Position numbers and translations under genes: made by a program. From the NCBI GenBank assembly GCA_021788955.1, contig JAJYKC010000164.1:1-6230 (forward strand): 6,230 bases of DNA, written 5' to 3'. Positions 1-6,230 of this stretch are shown piece after piece (within the stretch, counting starts at the first letter, position 1; the number at the start of each line of letters is the position of its first letter). Origin of the DNA: Acidobacteriota bacterium (GTDB lineage: Bacteria > Acidobacteriota > Terriglobia > Bryobacterales > Bryobacteraceae). The notes below the pieces were generated by a model. That model had not been told where the DNA came from. It saw nothing but the letters and a program-made list of their open reading frames with translations, and did no database searches.

Positions 1-352
1 AGTGGCAGGTCGCCAGTTGGGGCGCGACAAGAGCGCGCGCAAGGCGCTGTTCCGAAATCTGATTACCGAGTTGTTCCGGCGCGAGCGGATCGAGACGACC
101 GAAGCGAAAGCCAAAGCGATCCGTGGAGACGCCGAGAAATTGATCACGCTCGCCAAGCGCGGCGATGTGCATTCCCGCCGGCTAGCGGCGGAAACCATCC
201 TCGATCCCAAGGTGACGAAAAAACTGTTCGAGACGCTGGGACCGCGTTACAAAGAACGCGCGGGCGGCTACACGCGGCTGTTCAAAGTTGGTCCACGTCC
301 GGGCGACGCCGCGCCGGTCGTCATCATGGAATTGGTGGACCGAGAAATCTAA
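1..352 (+). CDS. rplQ: 50S ribosomal protein bL17, 5' partial
   Basis: Large-subunit ribosomal protein bL17, a structural component near the exit tunnel. The visible 116 residues carry the family pattern throughout: GRQLGR near the start, KALFRNL, an ITLAKRGD segment, LGPRYKERAGGYTR at about residues 79-92, and a C-terminal IMELVDR. The GTG at position 2 is very probably not the start. Family members begin with about four more residues (MRH-type) before the GRxL motif, so this GTG looks like an internal valine and the true start lies just left of the window. The usual SHR after the GR motif reads SAR here. rplQ normally closes the ribosomal-protein/rpoA operon, so the left neighbours are probably rpoA and other ribosomal genes; that is inference. 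Identity is very secure. Confidence 0.97.
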   Translation, partial: VAGRQLGRDKSARKALFRNLITELFRRERIETTEAKAKAIRGDAEKLITLAKRGDVHSRRLAAETILDPKVTKKLFETLGPRYKERAGGYTRLFKVGPRPGDAAPVVIMELVDREI

Positions 353-402: not shown

Positions 403-738
403 ATGCGACTACTGGCAATCGTCGAATACGACGGCACAGATTTCGAGGGGTTTCAGATCCAAAAGCGCCGGCGCACGGTGCAGGGCGAACTCGAAAAGGC
501 GCTGCGCCGAATCATCGGGGCGAAGGTTCGTGTGACGGCGGGAGGACGGACGCAGGTGGATGAAGTACGCAGCGGCGGCAGTTATCTTTCGCAGAACGAC
601 CTGCGCCTCCATTTCGGCCTCGGCTCGGCGCAGCGCGTGGACCGGATTGACATAGACTGGCCGTCGGGTGGGCGCCAGACGCTGCGCAATGTGGCGGCGG
701 ACCGGGTGTTGCCGATTCGGGAAGCGATTTCAGAGTGA
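403..738 (+). CDS. Chimeric ORF: TruA N-terminus joined to ASPIC/UnbV C-terminus
   Basis: Residues 1 to about 38 match the start of tRNA pseudouridine synthase TruA, the enzyme that makes pseudouridine in the tRNA anticodon arm: VEYDGTDFEGFQIQ (7-20) and TVQGELEKAL (25-34). Intact TruA continues into GRTDxGVHA, whose Asp is catalytic. Here GGRT (47-50) is followed by QVDEVRSGGSY, and the catalytic Asp position is Gln51. From about residue 39 the protein instead matches the tail of ASPIC/UnbV (CRTAC1-like) proteins: SGGSYLSQND (57-66), LRLHFGLG (67-74) and WPSG (86-89). Whole TruA is about 250 residues and CRTAC1 proteins are usually over 500, so both partners are truncated. The ORF has no stop or frameshift, but it should not have pseudouridine synthase activity. 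The ATG at 403 is the expected TruA start; no good ribosome binding site precedes it. It is either a real fusion remnant or an assembly misjoin. Confidence 0.8.
   Translation: MRLLAIVEYDGTDFEGFQIQKRRRTVQGELEKALRRIIGAKVRVTAGGRTQVDEVRSGGSYLSQNDLRLHFGLGSAQRVDRIDIDWPSGGRQTLRNVAADRVLPIREAISE
514..552 (+). other. Recombination or misjoin breakpoint (truA to ASPIC/UnbV)
   Basis: Codons 38-50 of the chimera (IGAKVRVTAGGRT) fit both parents. TruA has a similar stretch leading to G-A-G-R-T-D, and ASPIC/UnbV proteins have an IGAxVxVTAGGRxQ stretch. The breakpoint must lie in or just before this segment, because TruA features end at about residue 37 and unambiguous UnbV features start at Gln51. Similarity of the two parents here would suit homology-mediated deletion and would equally mislead a short-read assembler. 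Confidence 0.6.
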
Positions 739-774: not shown

Positions 775-1629
775 TTGCACGTGCAAACGGAGTCCGGGCT
801 TCCGCAGGGACACGCTCGGGAAGTGGCGGCAGGGGAACGCTTCTGCTTCGGAGAGAACTGGTCGCGTTTTCTCGAAAAACTGGATGATCGCCGAATAGCG
901 CAGGCAGAGGCTTCCCTGCGCGCGATGCTCGGCGTGAGCGACCTGCGCGGGCGCTCGTTTCTCGACGTAGGCTCCGGCAGCGGGCTGTTCTCACTCGCGG
1001 CGCGTCGGCTTGGAGCACGGGTGCATTCATTCGATTTCGATCCGCGGTCGGTGGCTTGCACGGCGGAACTGAGGAGACGGTATTTCGCTGAGGATCCGTC
1101 CTGGACGGTAGAACCCGGCAGCGTCCTCGACACGGAATATCTGAAGCGTCTCGGCCCTTTCGATGTCGTCTATTCCTGGGGTGTTCTGCATCACACGGGG
1201 GCAATGTGGCAGTCGCTTGCCAATGTTGCGCCACTGGTGGGTGATGGCGGCTTGTTGTTCATCGCAATCTACAACGACCAGGGGACGGCGAGCCGGCGTT
1301 GGCTGGCTGTGAAGCGCACGTATAACCGGCTGCCTCCGGCGCTGCGCTTCCTCGTCCTGTGGCCGGTGTTCGTGCAACAGTTCTGGCGCCCTATCGTGAA
1401 AGATCTTTTCAAGGGGCAGCCCTTGGCCTCGATCCGGCAACACGGCCAGGATCGGGGCATGGACATGTGGCGCGATCACGTGGACTGGGTGGGAGGGCTG
1501 CCGTTCGAGGTAGCCAAGCCGGAGCAGATATTCGATTTCTACCGCGAACGCGGCTTCGAGCTCTATCGGCTGGTCACGCAGGGTGGCAGTCTGGGGTGCA
1601 ACGAATTTGTCTTCCGCAAGGCGAGCTGA
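775..1629 (+). CDS. Class I SAM-dependent methyltransferase
   Basis: 284-residue soluble methyltransferase with a Rossmann fold. Motif I is LDVGSGSG (63-70), which binds S-adenosylmethionine. The acidic residue after strand 2 is in the FDFDP stretch (86-90, probably Asp87). The post-I region FDVVYSWGVLHHTG (129-142) is typical of methyltransferase types 11/12. The C-terminal part, with a DHVDWVGGLPFEVAKPE stretch and a GCNEFVF end, resembles methyltransferases found in polysaccharide biosynthesis clusters; this is recognition of the family style, not a database result. No signal peptide or membrane segment is obvious. The methyl acceptor is unknown, and a sugar or polysaccharide precursor is inferred from the neighbour. 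The TTG start is chosen from the upstream ribosome binding site; GTG at 781 would remove two residues. Only 6 nt separate its stop from the heparinase gene, so the two are probably co-transcribed. Confidence 0.9.
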   Translation: MHVQTESGLPQGHAREVAAGERFCFGENWSRFLEKLDDRRIAQAEASLRAMLGVSDLRGRSFLDVGSGSGLFSLAARRLGARVHSFDFDPRSVACTAELRRRYFAEDPSWTVEPGSVLDTEYLKRLGPFDVVYSWGVLHHTGAMWQSLANVAPLVGDGGLLFIAIYNDQGTASRRWLAVKRTYNRLPPALRFLVLWPVFVQQFWRPIVKDLFKGQPLASIRQHGQDRGMDMWRDHVDWVGGLPFEVAKPEQIFDFYRERGFELYRLVTQGGSLGCNEFVFRKAS

Positions 1630-1635: not shown

Positions 1636-3450
1636 TTGAGAATCCGCGACCCACGCGCAGTGGCGTACCGCCTGCGGCAGGAGGCGGTTAACGCCTCTCG
1701 TCTTCTGTTCCCCCCGCGTGCCCGCCACGGAAAACAACATATGCTTCCGTTGCCGGACGGCGCAGCCGTGGCCCGGAAACTGTGCAATACCCCGTACGCC
1801 GCCGAAGTCGAGCGATTGGCGGATCTGGTGCTGGCGCACCGCTTCCCGCTGCTCGGCGCGGAAATCGAGACCGGCGCGGAGATCGACTGGCGCAAGGATT
1901 ATCTGCACGGAGTTGAGACCACCCCGGCGTACTTCGCGCGGATCCCGTATCTCGACTTCACCCGTTGTGGGGATCACAAAGTCGTCTGGGAGTTGAACCG
2001 GCATCAGCATCTTGTCCTGCTCGCGCAGGCGCGGCTGTTGACAGGGAGGGCGGAGTATCTGGGGGAGATCTGCGCCGGGCTTCAAGGCTGGATCGAGCAG
2101 AACCCGTACCCGATGGGCATCAACTGGGCAAGCGCCCTGGAGGTCGCGCTGCGGGCGCTCTCGTGGCTGTGGGTGGATCATCTCGTGGGGGAGCAAATGC
2201 CGCAGGAGGTGCGCGAAAGGTTTTACGACCGGCTCTACATTCACGGCGTTCACCTGGCATCTAACCTCTCCGTTTACTTTGCTCCGAACACGCATCTTCT
2301 GGGCGAGGCCGTGGCGCTGCACGCGCTGGGCGTGTTTTTTGGCGAGCGGGGGTGGAGGGGCAAAGGGGCGGCGATCGTTGAGCGGGAGGCAGCGCGCCAG
2401 GTGCGGGATGACGGCGCATACTTCGAACAGTCGACCTACTACCACGTGTATGCGCTGGACATGCTGCTGTTCCACACGACTTTGCAGCCGCAGCCGGACG
2501 CCTACCGCGAACGCCTGCGGCGAATGGCGCGCTTCTTGCAAGCGGTCGCGGGGCCGCAACGCGAAATCCCGTTCATCGGAGATGACGACGGCGGCCGCTT
2601 CTTCCATCCTTACGGCAGGCACGCGCGGTACGGGCGTGCGACGCTGGCCGCCTGCGCGGCCTACGGTGTCGGCGAAGATGTGAGCTACGATGCCGAAGAC
2701 CTGCATCCGATCGCGGCATGGTGGCTGGGCGTTGTCGAGGGAGGAAACCGGGCTCGGCTAAAGAGCGAATTATTCCCGGATTCGGGTTTCGCGGTTCTGA
2801 CGGATGGTGTGACCCAATGCGTTGTGGATGCAGGGCCATTCGGTCCGTTTCGTGCCGGCCACACGCACGCGAGTAAATTGAGCTTCACCCTCTGCCGGGG
2901 CGGCGAATGGGTGCTCGGTGACCCGGGCACTTACACCTACGTAGCGGACCCCACGCTGCGCAACCGGTTTCGAGGAACGGCGATGCACAACACAGTTCGG
3001 ATCGACGGTCTGGATCAGGCTACGCCGGCAGGTCCGTTCGCGTGGGCGCAGCGGCCGCAGACACACGTGCTGGCATGGAACGTCAATGCGGTGCGGGAAG
3101 AAATTGAAGCTGAGTGCCGGTACCGCGGTTTTCGCCATGTGCGGCGGATTGTGTGGGAGAAGCCATCGCAACTGCTTGTGACCGATGAAATTGATGGCCC
3201 GGCGGGCACGCACGAACTCGAGCAGTTCTGGCATCCGGGAGCGCACGCGCGAGCTCTCAGCGGGCGTGAGTTCGCACTGGGAGCCGGCGCCATTCTTGTG
3301 CTCGATAGCGAGGCGGAGCTGAGCGAGGGTGGGGAGTTCGGATGGCGGTCGCCTGCGTTCGCGGTTCGGGAGCCGGCGCCCGTGATTCGCCGCGTCCGGC
3401 ACACTACGCTGCCCGCGCGTTTTGAAGCCCGGATCACGCTAAGCGAATAG
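1636..3450 (+). CDS. Heparinase II/III family polysaccharide lyase
   Basis: 604-residue protein with the two-part heparinase II/III architecture. The N-terminal half (about 60-330) should form the alpha/alpha toroid and the C-terminal part (about 370-560) the beta-sandwich Hepar_II_III domain. Candidate catalytic residues of the lyase family are present: N218 and H220 in NTHLLGEA, Tyr268/Tyr269-His270 in EQSTYYH, and His409/His411 in GHTHASK. Also typical are DPGTYTY (429-435) and the TAMHNTV segment (448-454). The family cleaves acidic polysaccharides by beta-elimination; the substrate here is unknown. There is no signal peptide, unlike secreted scavenging lyases, so the protein may act on a polysaccharide made by the cell. 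The TTG start keeps an N-terminal VAYRLRQEAVN segment of the type seen in polysaccharide-cluster members. ATG at 1741 would remove 35 residues including it. It probably forms an operon with the preceding methyltransferase. Confidence 0.92.
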   Translation: MRIRDPRAVAYRLRQEAVNASRLLFPPRARHGKQHMLPLPDGAAVARKLCNTPYAAEVERLADLVLAHRFPLLGAEIETGAEIDWRKDYLHGVETTPAYFARIPYLDFTRCGDHKVVWELNRHQHLVLLAQARLLTGRAEYLGEICAGLQGWIEQNPYPMGINWASALEVALRALSWLWVDHLVGEQMPQEVRERFYDRLYIHGVHLASNLSVYFAPNTHLLGEAVALHALGVFFGERGWRGKGAAIVEREAARQVRDDGAYFEQSTYYHVYALDMLLFHTTLQPQPDAYRERLRRMARFLQAVAGPQREIPFIGDDDGGRFFHPYGRHARYGRATLAACAAYGVGEDVSYDAEDLHPIAAWWLGVVEGGNRARLKSELFPDSGFAVLTDGVTQCVVDAGPFGPFRAGHTHASKLSFTLCRGGEWVLGDPGTYTYVADPTLRNRFRGTAMHNTVRIDGLDQATPAGPFAWAQRPQTHVLAWNVNAVREEIEAECRYRGFRHVRRIVWEKPSQLLVTDEIDGPAGTHELEQFWHPGAHARALSGREFALGAGAILVLDSEAELSEGGEFGWRSPAFAVREPAPVIRRVRHTTLPARFEARITLSE

Positions 3451-3459
3451 AATGGCATC

Positions 3460-3463
3460 AGGA
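3460..3463 (+). promoter_or_regulatory. Ribosome binding site deciding the DUF1080 start
   Basis: AGGA lies 6 nt before the ATG at 3470. The alternative in-frame ATG at 3452, directly after the heparinase stop, has no comparable site. The start at 3470 also gives a cleaner signal peptide. Confidence 0.5.
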
Positions 3464-3469
3464 CCGGCG

Positions 3470-4087
3470 ATGCGAACTCTTACTTTCCTCCTGACCGTGC
3501 TCTCGCTGGCGGCGGCGCCAGTTTCGGGCGAAGACATTTTCCCCGGCGATCACCTCGGCGAGTGGACACGGATCGCGATTCCCCCGACGAAGCAGATTTC
3601 GAATATCGCCCAGTGGCACAGCGACACGAAGGAGCGGGTGATCGTTTGCGACGGAAACGGCGGCCACGAGTGGCTGAGATATAACCACGAACTTACTAAC
3701 TTCGAGTTCCATGTGCAGTGGCGGTTTACGAAACTCGACGGCACGGCGAAGTATAACAGCGGCGTGTTCTTCCGGAATAACCGCGACGGGAGCATCTGGC
3801 ACCAGGCACAGGCGGGGTTAACCGGCGGCTACATCTTTGGCGACACGCCGGTCGCAGGAAAGCTGCAACGAGTGAATCTGCTCGCTCAAATGAAAGAGAA
3901 CCGGGTGAAGCCCGCGGGCGAGTGGAACGACTACGTTATCCGCTGCCAGGGGGCGGACTGCACACTGGCCGTGAACGGCGAAGTGACGAGCGAAATTCAC
4001 ATCGACGTTCCGAGCGGATTCATCGGGCTTGAGAGCGAAGGGTATCGAATCGAGTTCCGGCATCTCGAGTTGACAGTGCTGCCTTAG
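3470..4087 (+). CDS. Secreted DUF1080 (3-keto-disaccharide hydrolase-like) protein
   Basis: 205-residue single-domain protein of the DUF1080 family, a concanavalin-like beta-sandwich for which 3-keto-glycoside hydrolysis has been reported in some members. Residues 1-20 form a signal peptide: MRT, a hydrophobic core LTFLLTVLSLAAA, then a likely cleavage after VSG. Recognisable family parts follow in order: FEFHVQWRF, YNSGVFFR, GGYIFGDTP, the VKPAGEWNDYVIRC stretch with its typical NG turn (AVNGE), and a closing GFIGLESEGYRIEFRHLEL. The start at 3470 is preferred for its ribosome binding site; the ATG at 3452 would add six residues (MASGPA). It follows the heparinase gene by 19 nt or less, so a shared transcript is likely. 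Secretion, in contrast to the two upstream proteins, suggests an extracytoplasmic role in sugar breakdown. Its stop overlaps the stop of the convergent esterase gene by 4 nt. Confidence 0.9.
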   Translation: MRTLTFLLTVLSLAAAPVSGEDIFPGDHLGEWTRIAIPPTKQISNIAQWHSDTKERVIVCDGNGGHEWLRYNHELTNFEFHVQWRFTKLDGTAKYNSGVFFRNNRDGSIWHQAQAGLTGGYIFGDTPVAGKLQRVNLLAQMKENRVKPAGEWNDYVIRCQGADCTLAVNGEVTSEIHIDVPSGFIGLESEGYRIEFRHLELTVLP

Positions 4088-4093
4088 GCGGCA
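4077..4093. terminator. Hairpin over two overlapping convergent stop codons
   Basis: TGCTGCC (4077-4083) pairs with GGCGGCA (4087-4093) around a TTA loop, giving a 7-bp stem with one G-U pair on the + strand transcript and one C-A mismatch on the - strand. The loop and flank carry both stops: TAG at 4085-4087 on + and TAA at 4086-4084 on -. Neither strand has a clear T-tract, so termination is plausible but not proven. Confidence 0.3.
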
Positions 4094-4800
4094 AGGTGTT
4101 TCGCGGCCATGCGCTGCCACCAGGGCCAGTCGTGCGCGGCGCCGTCGCCCCAGACGTCGAGGGTGTGCGGTATGCCGCGTGAGGCGAGAGTCTCCGAGAA
4201 GCGGCGGTTCTCGTCGAGGAGAAAGTCGTGCTCACCGACCGCGAGGATGAGACGCGCCGCGCGGCAATGGTCGAGGCGAGGGCCGTCTTCGAGCCGCGGC
4301 ACGTAGTCGGGAGGGTTTTGTTCGAGGACGGCGTGGTCAAAGTAGCCGTCAAGGAAGCGGCGAATGTCGAAGGCTCCCCCGAGGGTGAGGGCGCGGCGGA
4401 ACACTCCGGGGTGGCGAAGGGCAAGGTTCATCGCGTGATAGCCGCCGAGGCTGGTGCCAAGAGCACCAAGCGTCGCACCAGGATTTTTGCTGCGCACGAG
4501 CGGGATGACCTCCTGGAGGATGTAGCGCTCATAAGAGTCTTGGAGGCGGACCCGGGCGGCCGGGCTTCGCCGCTTGTTATACCAGCCTGTCGCGTTGACC
4601 GTGTCTAGGCAGAATAGTTGGAGGGCGCCGGCCTCGATCGGCGCGCGGAGGATGTTGACCATACCGCGGTCCGCGAATTCGGAGTGCCTTCCGCCGGAAG
4701 TGGGAAAGACGAGGAACGCCTCGCCGCCCTGGCCATAAACCGACATTTCCATGTTGCGCCGGAGAATGCGGCTCCGTTGGACGATGTGCTCGTGGATCAA
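4084..4800 (-). CDS. Alpha/beta-hydrolase, putative esterase (COG4947-like)
   Basis: About 238 residues of an esterase-type alpha/beta hydrolase. Numbered from the preferred start, the catalytic triad candidates are Ser117 in the nucleophile elbow GTSLG (115-119), Asp192 in GEHDFLLDEN, and His223 in GAAHDWPWW. The N-terminal pattern NMEMSVYG followed by FLVFPTSGGR resembles small cytoplasmic esterases of the COG4947 type; the substrate is unknown. The TTG at 4800 is preferred because family members begin about 15 residues before the ME-x-x-VYG strand, and the protein then starts MIHEHIVQRS. Longer in-frame starts exist at ATG 4887 and TTG 4896; the added residues look like translated leader. 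No signal peptide is seen. It is transcribed away from the propeller-like gene at the right, across a 280-nt gap, and towards the DUF1080 gene. Confidence 0.85.
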   Translation of the reverse strand: MIHEHIVQRSRILRRNMEMSVYGQGGEAFLVFPTSGGRHSEFADRGMVNILRAPIEAGALQLFCLDTVNATGWYNKRRSPAARVRLQDSYERYILQEVIPLVRSKNPGATLGALGTSLGGYHAMNLALRHPGVFRRALTLGGAFDIRRFLDGYFDHAVLEQNPPDYVPRLEDGPRLDHCRAARLILAVGEHDFLLDENRRFSETLASRGIPHTLDVWGDGAAHDWPWWQRMAAKHLAA

Positions 4801-5083
4801 AGCTGAGATACCCCGCGTCTGCTTTAGCGTGTACGTTCTAGTCTGCCCTATGGGATAAGGTGCAAGCAATAGAGGGTAGTCAGGCATCTCGTGCAATTAC
4901 AACGAGGTGCGACAAATTCGGTTATTGCTGCACTACTTGGGTGTCAAAACAATATATGGAAAAACTGGAAGAAATAGTGGTTCTCAGTTTTGACCTGTTT
5001 GACGAAGATCCGGGCGATGAGTTCCTCGGTTATCTCGAACTGATGGATTGCCTCGAGGCGCTGGAAGCCGACGTCGAGCCGAA
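4801..5083. other. Gap between the two - strand genes, with AT-rich core
   Basis: This 283-nt stretch separates the esterase from the next - strand gene. Its centre is unusual: only 22 of 60 bases at 4921-4980 are G or C, far below the flanking genes. It holds a promoter-like pair for the esterase and a possible small + strand ORF. No tRNA, riboswitch or clear terminator was recognised. Confidence 0.6.
4921..4947 (-). promoter_or_regulatory. Candidate sigma-70-type promoter for the esterase
   Basis: Read on the - strand, a perfect TTGACA (4947-4942) is followed by a 15-nt spacer and AATAAC (4926-4921), which matches 4 of 6 bases of TATAAT. It lies in the AT-rich part of the gap and points at the esterase. 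Transcription would begin near 4914, leaving a leader of about 115 nt to the TTG at 4800, or about 27 nt to the ATG at 4887. The spacer is shorter than the ideal 17, so this is tentative. Confidence 0.3.
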
Positions 5084-5087
5084 CTAA
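4956..5087 (+). CDS. Possible small acidic protein, 43 residues
   Basis: Not recognised. From ATG 4956 the frame gives 43 residues starting MEKLEEIVVLSFDLFDEDPG, with 15 Asp/Glu and only one Lys, so it would be strongly acidic. The second half uses mainly G/C in third codon positions, as real genes in this window do. The first half and the upstream sequence are AT-rich. There is no clear ribosome binding site, and an in-frame GTG at 4860 would give 75 residues with a less convincing start. Its TAA (5085-5087) overlaps the TAG of the - strand gene (5086-5084), the same 4-nt stop overlap seen at 4084-4087. It could be a real small gene, a fragment of a lost gene, or chance. Confidence 0.35.
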   Translation: MEKLEEIVVLSFDLFDEDPGDEFLGYLELMDCLEALEADVEPN

Positions 5088-6230
5088 GGCATCTGCCGCC
5101 GCGTTCTCATGACAAGGCTGAGTCGCCCAGAGACGTCCGGTTCGAAGCTGAAGTGGCGAAGTGCCTCGGCATGCAGAGTGTAAAGCCCGTCGCTGGTTCC
5201 GCAGTAGATCGTCTCCTCAACGCGGTCGATGGTGTAGACGTACTCGGAGAAGGGATAGCGCCGCGTTGAGCCGTCGCGCAGGTCGAATCGGAGTAGGCCG
5301 CCTCCGATCGCAGAGCCCTCGGGCCGGCGCATTAGACCGATCCAGAGAGCGCCCCGGTCGAGCAGGATGGCGGAGGCAGACCATGGGGCGATGACGGGCA
5401 GGTAGCGCACGGTGTACTTCCGGCTGGCGAAGTCGAAAGAACCAATGGCGCCGACGCCGGATACGCCCTCAGCATCATAAAAGGTGTTTGCAAACCAGAT
5501 GTGCGAAGCGTCCGCCGCCCACGGTCCGATGTCGATTTCAATTATTCCCCCATGCATTTTTTGAGGTTTTTGTGTCCCGAACACGCCCACGGACGCGACC
5601 GGCGAAGGGTAGAAGCGCTTCCTTCCGTTGGGTTCGGTGACCTGAATGCCCGATGGCTGGTGCGTCTGGCCGGGCGGTGTCTTGTTCACCACGAGAAATG
5701 TTGCGCCATCCGGAGTCCGAATCGGAGTTCGATCCGGGCCGGGCGGCGGGAACGGGAAGCGCGGCGACTCTGCGAGCCGGAAAGCCGGAGCCTGGCCTGC
5801 ATCCAGTGGCTCCAGGCTGAGCTTTCGATAGGTCAGCACGTCATCGATGACCGTCTTTCGGGCGGGTTCGTTCACACCGCCCATGACGTCGTAGACGATG
5901 CGCCCCTTGCTTATCGCGGACGCAACAAGGGCGAGCTTACGATAATGCTGTCTTACGGGCGGCGTCCGGTGTGCGTCGTCGAAAAAGTACTTGATGCTCC
6001 CGAAATACAGGCCGTAGTCGGAGTAGAAATCGAGGTACGCAGCGTGAGCGGACGCCGCTACGAGGGTAGGGAACGGCTCGGAAGTCTTGGGCCGGTAAAT
6101 GTCGATCACCAGTCGGACGCGATTGTCCGGAACGGAAACAAGTAAGACTCCGGCGACGGGCCTTAAAGGCGAGCGTGGTGCTGCCTTGGCCGACGCGCTG
6201 ACAAGCAGGACCGCTTCCCTGGCCTTTACA
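5084..6230 (-). CDS. Unrecognised protein with beta-propeller-like repeats, 5' partial
   Basis: At least 381 residues. The frame is open to the right edge: 40 codons upstream of the GTG at 6109 contain no stop, so the GTG is probably an internal valine and the true start lies outside. The visible beginning, with AVLLVSASAKAAP and GVLLVSVPDNRV stretches, is hydrophobic and small-residue-rich, possibly a signal or first strand. The middle has a Pro-rich segment (FPFPPPGPDRTP). The C-terminal 150 residues show propeller-like units: an IWFANTFYD strand and a later FDFASRKYTV strand, then LWIGLM, LLRFDLRDGSTRRYPF, and YCGTSDGLYTL. Such aromatic/Gly patterns recur in two-component-regulator-type and Kelch/NHL-like propellers, but I cannot name the family. 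No enzyme motif was seen. Substrate and location are unknown; export is possible if a signal peptide lies upstream. The gap of about 280 nt makes an operon with the esterase doubtful. Confidence 0.75.
   Translation of the reverse strand, partial: VKAREAVLLVSASAKAAPRSPLRPVAGVLLVSVPDNRVRLVIDIYRPKTSEPFPTLVAASAHAAYLDFYSDYGLYFGSIKYFFDDAHRTPPVRQHYRKLALVASAISKGRIVYDVMGGVNEPARKTVIDDVLTYRKLSLEPLDAGQAPAFRLAESPRFPFPPPGPDRTPIRTPDGATFLVVNKTPPGQTHQPSGIQVTEPNGRKRFYPSPVASVGVFGTQKPQKMHGGIIEIDIGPWAADASHIWFANTFYDAEGVSGVGAIGSFDFASRKYTVRYLPVIAPWSASAILLDRGALWIGLMRRPEGSAIGGGLLRFDLRDGSTRRYPFSEYVYTIDRVEETIYCGTSDGLYTLHAEALRHFSFEPDVSGRLSLVMRTRRQMP

Follow-up and report, generated by a model that had tools for sequence, protein, structure and literature searches.

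A TruA/ASPIC gene fusion behind rplQ that very probably reflects an inter-phylum chimeric metagenome contig

Short-read metagenome assembly is known to err by producing chimeric contigs composed of several genomes, and an excerpt of PMC7299287 describes such chimeras among related species, whose assembly graphs become connected through shared k-mers or sequencing errors. Of the two protein families that concern us here, TruA and ASPIC/UnbV, the latter appears in PMC3174227, where an ASPIC/UnbV protein is named in a table on Solibacter paralogs. The stretch of DNA that we analysed (hereafter the window, 6,230 bases) is evidently a whole contig with rplQ-truA at its very end, and behind rplQ it carries an open reading frame (ORF) in which the start of TruA runs in frame into an ASPIC/UnbV domain. 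That the window is the whole contig follows from the database entries of this ORF and of the window's lyase, both of which belong to a contig of 6230 bases, as long as the window itself. We consider it very probable that the window is a chimeric metagenome contig made of sequences from two phyla, an artefact of assembly or library preparation, and that the fusion is not a biological feature. We infer that the join almost certainly originated at one of these two steps and is present in no cell.

The features of the window are as follows, G001 being the nearest Chloroflexota metagenome-assembled genome (MAG):

2-352, plus strand: rplQ (50S ribosomal protein L17; PF01196, 124.6 bits; TIGR00059, 137.2 bits), apparently of Chloroflexota (Anaerolineae-like) origin
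403-738, plus strand: TruA/ASPIC chimeric ORF, 111 amino acids in one complete frame, with an ATG and a plausible start and stop
403-513, plus strand: truncated 5′ end of truA, residues 1-37, the last possible TruA residue being about residue 50 (nt 552); defined by TIGR00071, by 82% identity to the G001 truA over residues 1-50 and by the change-point at residue 38
514-552, plus strand: zone holding the join (IGAKVRVTAGGRT), which resembles both families; defined by per-residue counts (40 TruA rows against 111-119 ASPIC rows) and a drop in DNA identity
514-738, plus strand: ASPIC/UnbV C-terminal domain of a probably acidobacterial CRTAC1-type protein whose N-terminal part is absent (PF07593, 88.9 bits; 11 best other matches 70-80% identical)
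775-1629, plus strand: SAM-dependent methyltransferase (PF08242/PF13489; best match, P0241, 93% identical)
1636-3450, plus strand: heparinase II/III-type lyase (PF07940 and PF16889; best other match, P0122, 92% identical)
3452-4087, plus strand: 3-keto-disaccharide hydrolase-domain protein (PF06439, 83.8 bits), placed in the right-hand segment by its position
4084-4896, minus strand: esterase-like protein, listed among the downstream ORFs
5084-6109, minus strand: ORF of 341 residues, matched by no Pfam (E up to 1) or NCBIfam (E up to 0.01) family

As an earlier note on this DNA had stated, the ORF at 403-738 starts as TruA, ends as ASPIC/UnbV and directly follows rplQ, whose identity is confirmed by the PF01196 match. 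Residues 3-50 match positions 3-51 of the 228 in the NCBIfam profile TIGR00071 (hisT_truA) with 43.3 bits against a cut-off of 142.85, and the Pfam TruA family (PF01416) matches residues 5-51 with 18.6 bits, under its cut-off of 23.3; the ORF does not contain a full-length TruA. Its C-terminal two thirds form a near-complete ASPIC/UnbV domain, since PF07593 (UnbV_ASPIC) covers residues 38-103 with profile positions 2-67 of 68, its 88.9 bits exceeding the cut-off of 23.4. All 40 ungapped TruA rows have the Asp of GRTD, the catalytic residue of TruA, and the window has Q at this position, like 115 of the 119 ASPIC rows. Ninety of the listed proteins extend at least 35 residues upstream of SGGSY; 86 of these carry a canonical segment just ahead of the domain (N, then R, H, L or S), and the window protein is one of the four without it.

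The place of the switch was estimated by a change-point count. The TruA side consisted of 40 distinct ungapped rows from several phyla, taken from all fetched loci after gapped and duplicate rows had been dropped, and the ASPIC side of the 120 listed proteins except that of the window, with 109-119 letters per position; three suspect proteins (P0058, P0078 and P0100, discussed below) were kept among the ASPIC rows. The best single change-point was residue 38 (nt 514), that is, between residues 37 and 38 (nt 513 and 514). In the per-residue count, TruA was favoured at residues 30, 31, 33, 34, 36 and 37, and ASPIC at residues 38, 40, 42 and 45-47 and at nearly all of 51-66 (weakly at 58), while residues 29, 39, 41, 43, 44 and 48-50 gave little signal either way. 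However, residues 32 and 35, which lie upstream of this change-point, favoured ASPIC and count against it. At the DNA level, the window shares 25-28 of 30 bases per block with the G001 truA in the three blocks across 403-492, then 20 of 30 in 493-522, 20 of 30 in 523-552 and 6 of 30 in 553-582; across the last two blocks, identity to five truA relatives falls from 18-20 to 6-9 of 30.

By these counts the switch would most likely lie between residues 37 and 38, some 13 residues upstream of the Asp position, and since Q stands there as in most ASPIC rows, that position would already belong to the ASPIC part. The claim that the Asp was lost exactly at the switch therefore stands for the loss and probably falls for the place. 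If the real truA parent were closer to the window than G001 is, the join could be anywhere up to about nt 552. The zone from 514 to 552 does resemble both TruA and ASPIC, which bears out the proposal that the join falls where the two families read alike: the G001 TruA has ITGERIRVTGAGRTD here and the ASPIC row P0093 has AIGARVRVTAGGRTQ. The nearest truA sequences, that of G001 among them, differ from the window at several bases of this zone. The G+C content does not change across the join, and its profile is uninformative on it.

On the left side, the rplQ product of the window is 93% identical to that of an Anaerolineae MAG (locus L001) and 87, 87, 83, 81 and 78% identical to those of loci L002-L006, all six being Chloroflexota by record title (Anaerolineae, Chloroflexi, Ca. 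Aquidulcis). Among the best 80 matches listed, the next one is also from Chloroflexota, at 68%, and those from other phyla reach at most 66%. Positions 1-330 of the window show 84% DNA identity to L001, whose contig stops there, inside rplQ. Similarity in blastn to the other relatives extends through rplQ into truA and ends at 494 (L003), 533 (L002), 535 (L004 and L006), 540 (L005) and 552 (G001), and over TruA residues 1-50 the fetched relatives from the same family show 67-82% identity. The rplQ neighbourhood in relatives, which the earlier note had wished to see checked, is intact: rplQ and a full-length truA, with L13 and S9 after it, are present in all five of L002-L006, and the same order from truA on is found on the truA-bearing contig of G001 (NCBIfam identified truA, L13 and S9 in G001, and similarity to that contig located them in L002-L006). 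At E 1e-6 we found neither L13 nor S9 in the window, and the G001 truA matched it only over 388-552. Chloroflexota sequence appears confined to the first 515-550 bases of the window, and on the best reading an Anaerolineae-like Chloroflexota genome is the source of these bases, which hold rplQ and codons 1 to 37-50 of truA. In G001, rplQ ends one contig (C597, which is L001) and truA apparently lies near the end of another (C275, L088), so that this assembly, too, broke near this place.

The right side has other relatives. For the ASPIC tail, the 11 best other matches (P0002-P0012) are 70-80% identical over 66-72% of the query, and both organism-named rows among the 120 listed are acidobacterial, one from Bryobacteraceae (P0013, 67%) and one from Acidobacteria (P0028, 68%). 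The Bryobacteraceae belong to the Acidobacteriota. Among the 120 listed proteins for each of the next two genes, the named rows were all Bryobacteraceae, namely four of four for the lyase (53-56% identical) and three of three for the methyltransferase (68-72% identical), which brings the three lists together to nine of nine named rows from Bryobacteraceae or Acidobacteria. As the best reading, then, the right side would derive from a Bryobacteraceae-like acidobacterium, an assignment that depends on the more distant, organism-named rows at 53-72% identity. A plasmid search with the ASPIC tail returned eight records, all below 60% identity, four of them from Acidobacteriota (two Acidisarcina and two Granulicella), and a search of viral contigs for the fusion and the methyltransferase found no relative.

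Seven contig sizes (90714, 43019, 14807, 22386, 51422, 3580 and 92347) were common, by eye, to the lyase and methyltransferase lists, the contig of 92347 belonging to a methyltransferase cluster (P0248) named Bryobacteraceae. Since these sizes are shared, the two genes appear to occur together elsewhere too, the link being one of equal sizes and not of contig names, and this suggests that methyltransferase and heparinase-type lyase make up a genuine block, apparently a conserved pair. The two closest lyases (P0122 and P0123) have no methyltransferase partner among the matches listed. Further downstream, the lowest G+C of the profile (0.50) was observed at 4801-5100, about where the two minus-strand ORFs are separated.

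We then considered whether the two halves co-occur in other records. The protein search gave 803 relatives, and among the 120 listed only the window's own protein covers 100% of the query; the next best coverages are those of P0078 (92%) and P0072 (89%), neither of which has a TruA start, and no second TruA/ASPIC fusion is found among these 120. In the 14 genomes of the family, the fusion query matched 13, each match ending by residue 58, and gave no second fusion. It matched 380 of 400 Chloroflexota genomes. No match listed from these covers both halves; of the listed ones with a start in TruA, the longest reaches residue 77 and lies in an open frame of 258 amino acids. Identity on the ASPIC side was at most 51% among the matches listed from these 400 genomes, in contrast to the 70-80% of the best protein-search matches. 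In the six near Chloroflexota genomes, ASPIC was above the cut-off in one (32.1 bits) and was not found in the other five, and the lyase gave any match in only six of the 14 family genomes, at 34% identity or less. ASPIC proteins do occur in some Chloroflexota (for example G142, with 11 matches), so the argument rests on the degree of identity and on gene context rather than on absence. The two sides thus affiliate with different organisms, the left with Chloroflexota and the right, by its named rows, with Bryobacteraceae or Acidobacteria, and among the matches listed the junction is absent from independent records, as is to be expected of an inter-genome chimera.

These observations bear on three explanations in which the fusion would be real. 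One is an illegitimate recombination between phyla, by which a Chloroflexota rplQ-truA fragment came to lie in frame in an acidobacterial ASPIC gene, or the reverse, and a small ASPIC protein would now be made from a ribosomal-operon promoter. The frame kept across the join, the plausible start and stop of the ORF and the even G+C would all suit such an event, but it would require a piece from the 5′ part of an operon to cross from one phylum to another and to land at a similar sequence, and the left piece sits at a contig end, starting one base before rplQ and stopping in mid-gene. Moreover, the full-length protein is known from one contig only (among the 120 listed of 803), and none of the matches listed from the 14 genomes of the family and the 400 of the phylum extends over both halves. 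We regard this event as very unlikely.

Less likely still, at a chance that we would put close to nil, is the fusion of truA to an ASPIC gene further downstream by a deletion in a single genome. It would draw on the similar sequence of both families at the join and on the ASPIC genes of some Chloroflexota, but the halves differ in phylum affiliation, and no close copies of the genes on the right occur in the relatives of the left half, as the lyase and ASPIC searches in the family and near genomes indicate. The earlier proposal of a deletion that joined the ribosomal operon to an accessory locus is thus not upheld, as the two parents do not look like one genome. That the ORF belongs to a conserved new family, its N-terminus derived from TruA and its C-terminus being ASPIC, is just as hard to credit: one complete open reading frame speaks for it, but no other member appears among the 120 listed of 803 proteins or the listed genome matches, and the Asp shared by all 40 TruA rows is absent, as is the remainder of TruA. 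The same 111-residue protein in several independent genomes, which had been named as the sign of a real fusion, was likewise not seen there, and the idea that a new protein is made finds no support. What the earlier note had offered as the alternative, an artefact joining two unlinked loci, is supported by the halves lying in different phyla, by the intact rplQ-truA-L13-S9 order of the relatives and by the lack of another copy among the matches listed.

Under the artefact reading, an Anaerolineae-like Chloroflexota genome would have contributed rplQ and the beginning of truA (37-50 codons), and a Bryobacteraceae-like acidobacterium the last 70 or so ASPIC/UnbV codons, followed by the methyltransferase, the lyase and further genes. 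The two would have been joined where TruA ahead of GRTD and the first strand of the ASPIC domain resemble each other by chance, and because of this likeness the reading frame would have been kept, so that the ORF looks like a fused gene. A false join of two organisms would account for the differing affiliations, the position at a contig end, the fact that both genes are cut short and the absence of other copies. An assembler misjoin seems likelier than a chimeric library molecule. A shared k-mer is the classic cause of such a join and is hypothetical here, since no long exact repeat came to light in the comparison with the G001 truA, which differs from the window at several bases of the join zone.

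The other three proteins without the usual segment upstream of ASPIC are P0058, P0078 and P0100. P0058 is encoded on a 580-base contig. Its NfeD C-terminal domain spans residues 29-72 and reaches profile position 46 of 57; recognised by Pfam only and not by NCBIfam, it runs into ASPIC from residue 64. P0078 is from a contig of 1188 bases; Pfam shows ASPIC only, its N-terminal part has no NCBIfam or PDB match, and 10 of its 11 plasmid matches begin at residue 55 or later, the remaining one beginning at residue 25, within a CRTAC1 protein. In P0058 and P0078, unrelated N-termini lead into ASPIC at the same ARVRLTA segment, and the two are possible further chimeras. P0100 has the look of an ASPIC-type protein with an internal loss. 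These cases hint that false joins recur where the ASPIC domain begins, but they are few, and the search that yielded them prefers proteins of this length. The window ORF provides a clean example of an in-frame chimera that resembles a gene fusion, and chimeric ORFs of this kind will occur in databases of predicted metagenome proteins.

When the ORF is compared with known systems, it resembles TruA in that residues 3-50 match the first 51 of the 228 TIGR00071 positions and in its place after rplQ, where truA is found in the Chloroflexota relatives, but about 80% of the TruA protein and the Asp of GRTD are absent. With CRTAC1-type ASPIC proteins it shares positions 2-67 of the 68 in PF07593 and 70-80% identity to the 11 best other matches, yet the long N-terminal FG-GAP/VCBS part of those proteins is absent. 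As a whole, the window is most like the inter-genome chimeric contigs treated in the excerpt of PMC7299287, with two genomes in one contig joined at a local similarity; it differs from the chimeras described there in that its parents would be of different phyla and the likeness between them is short.
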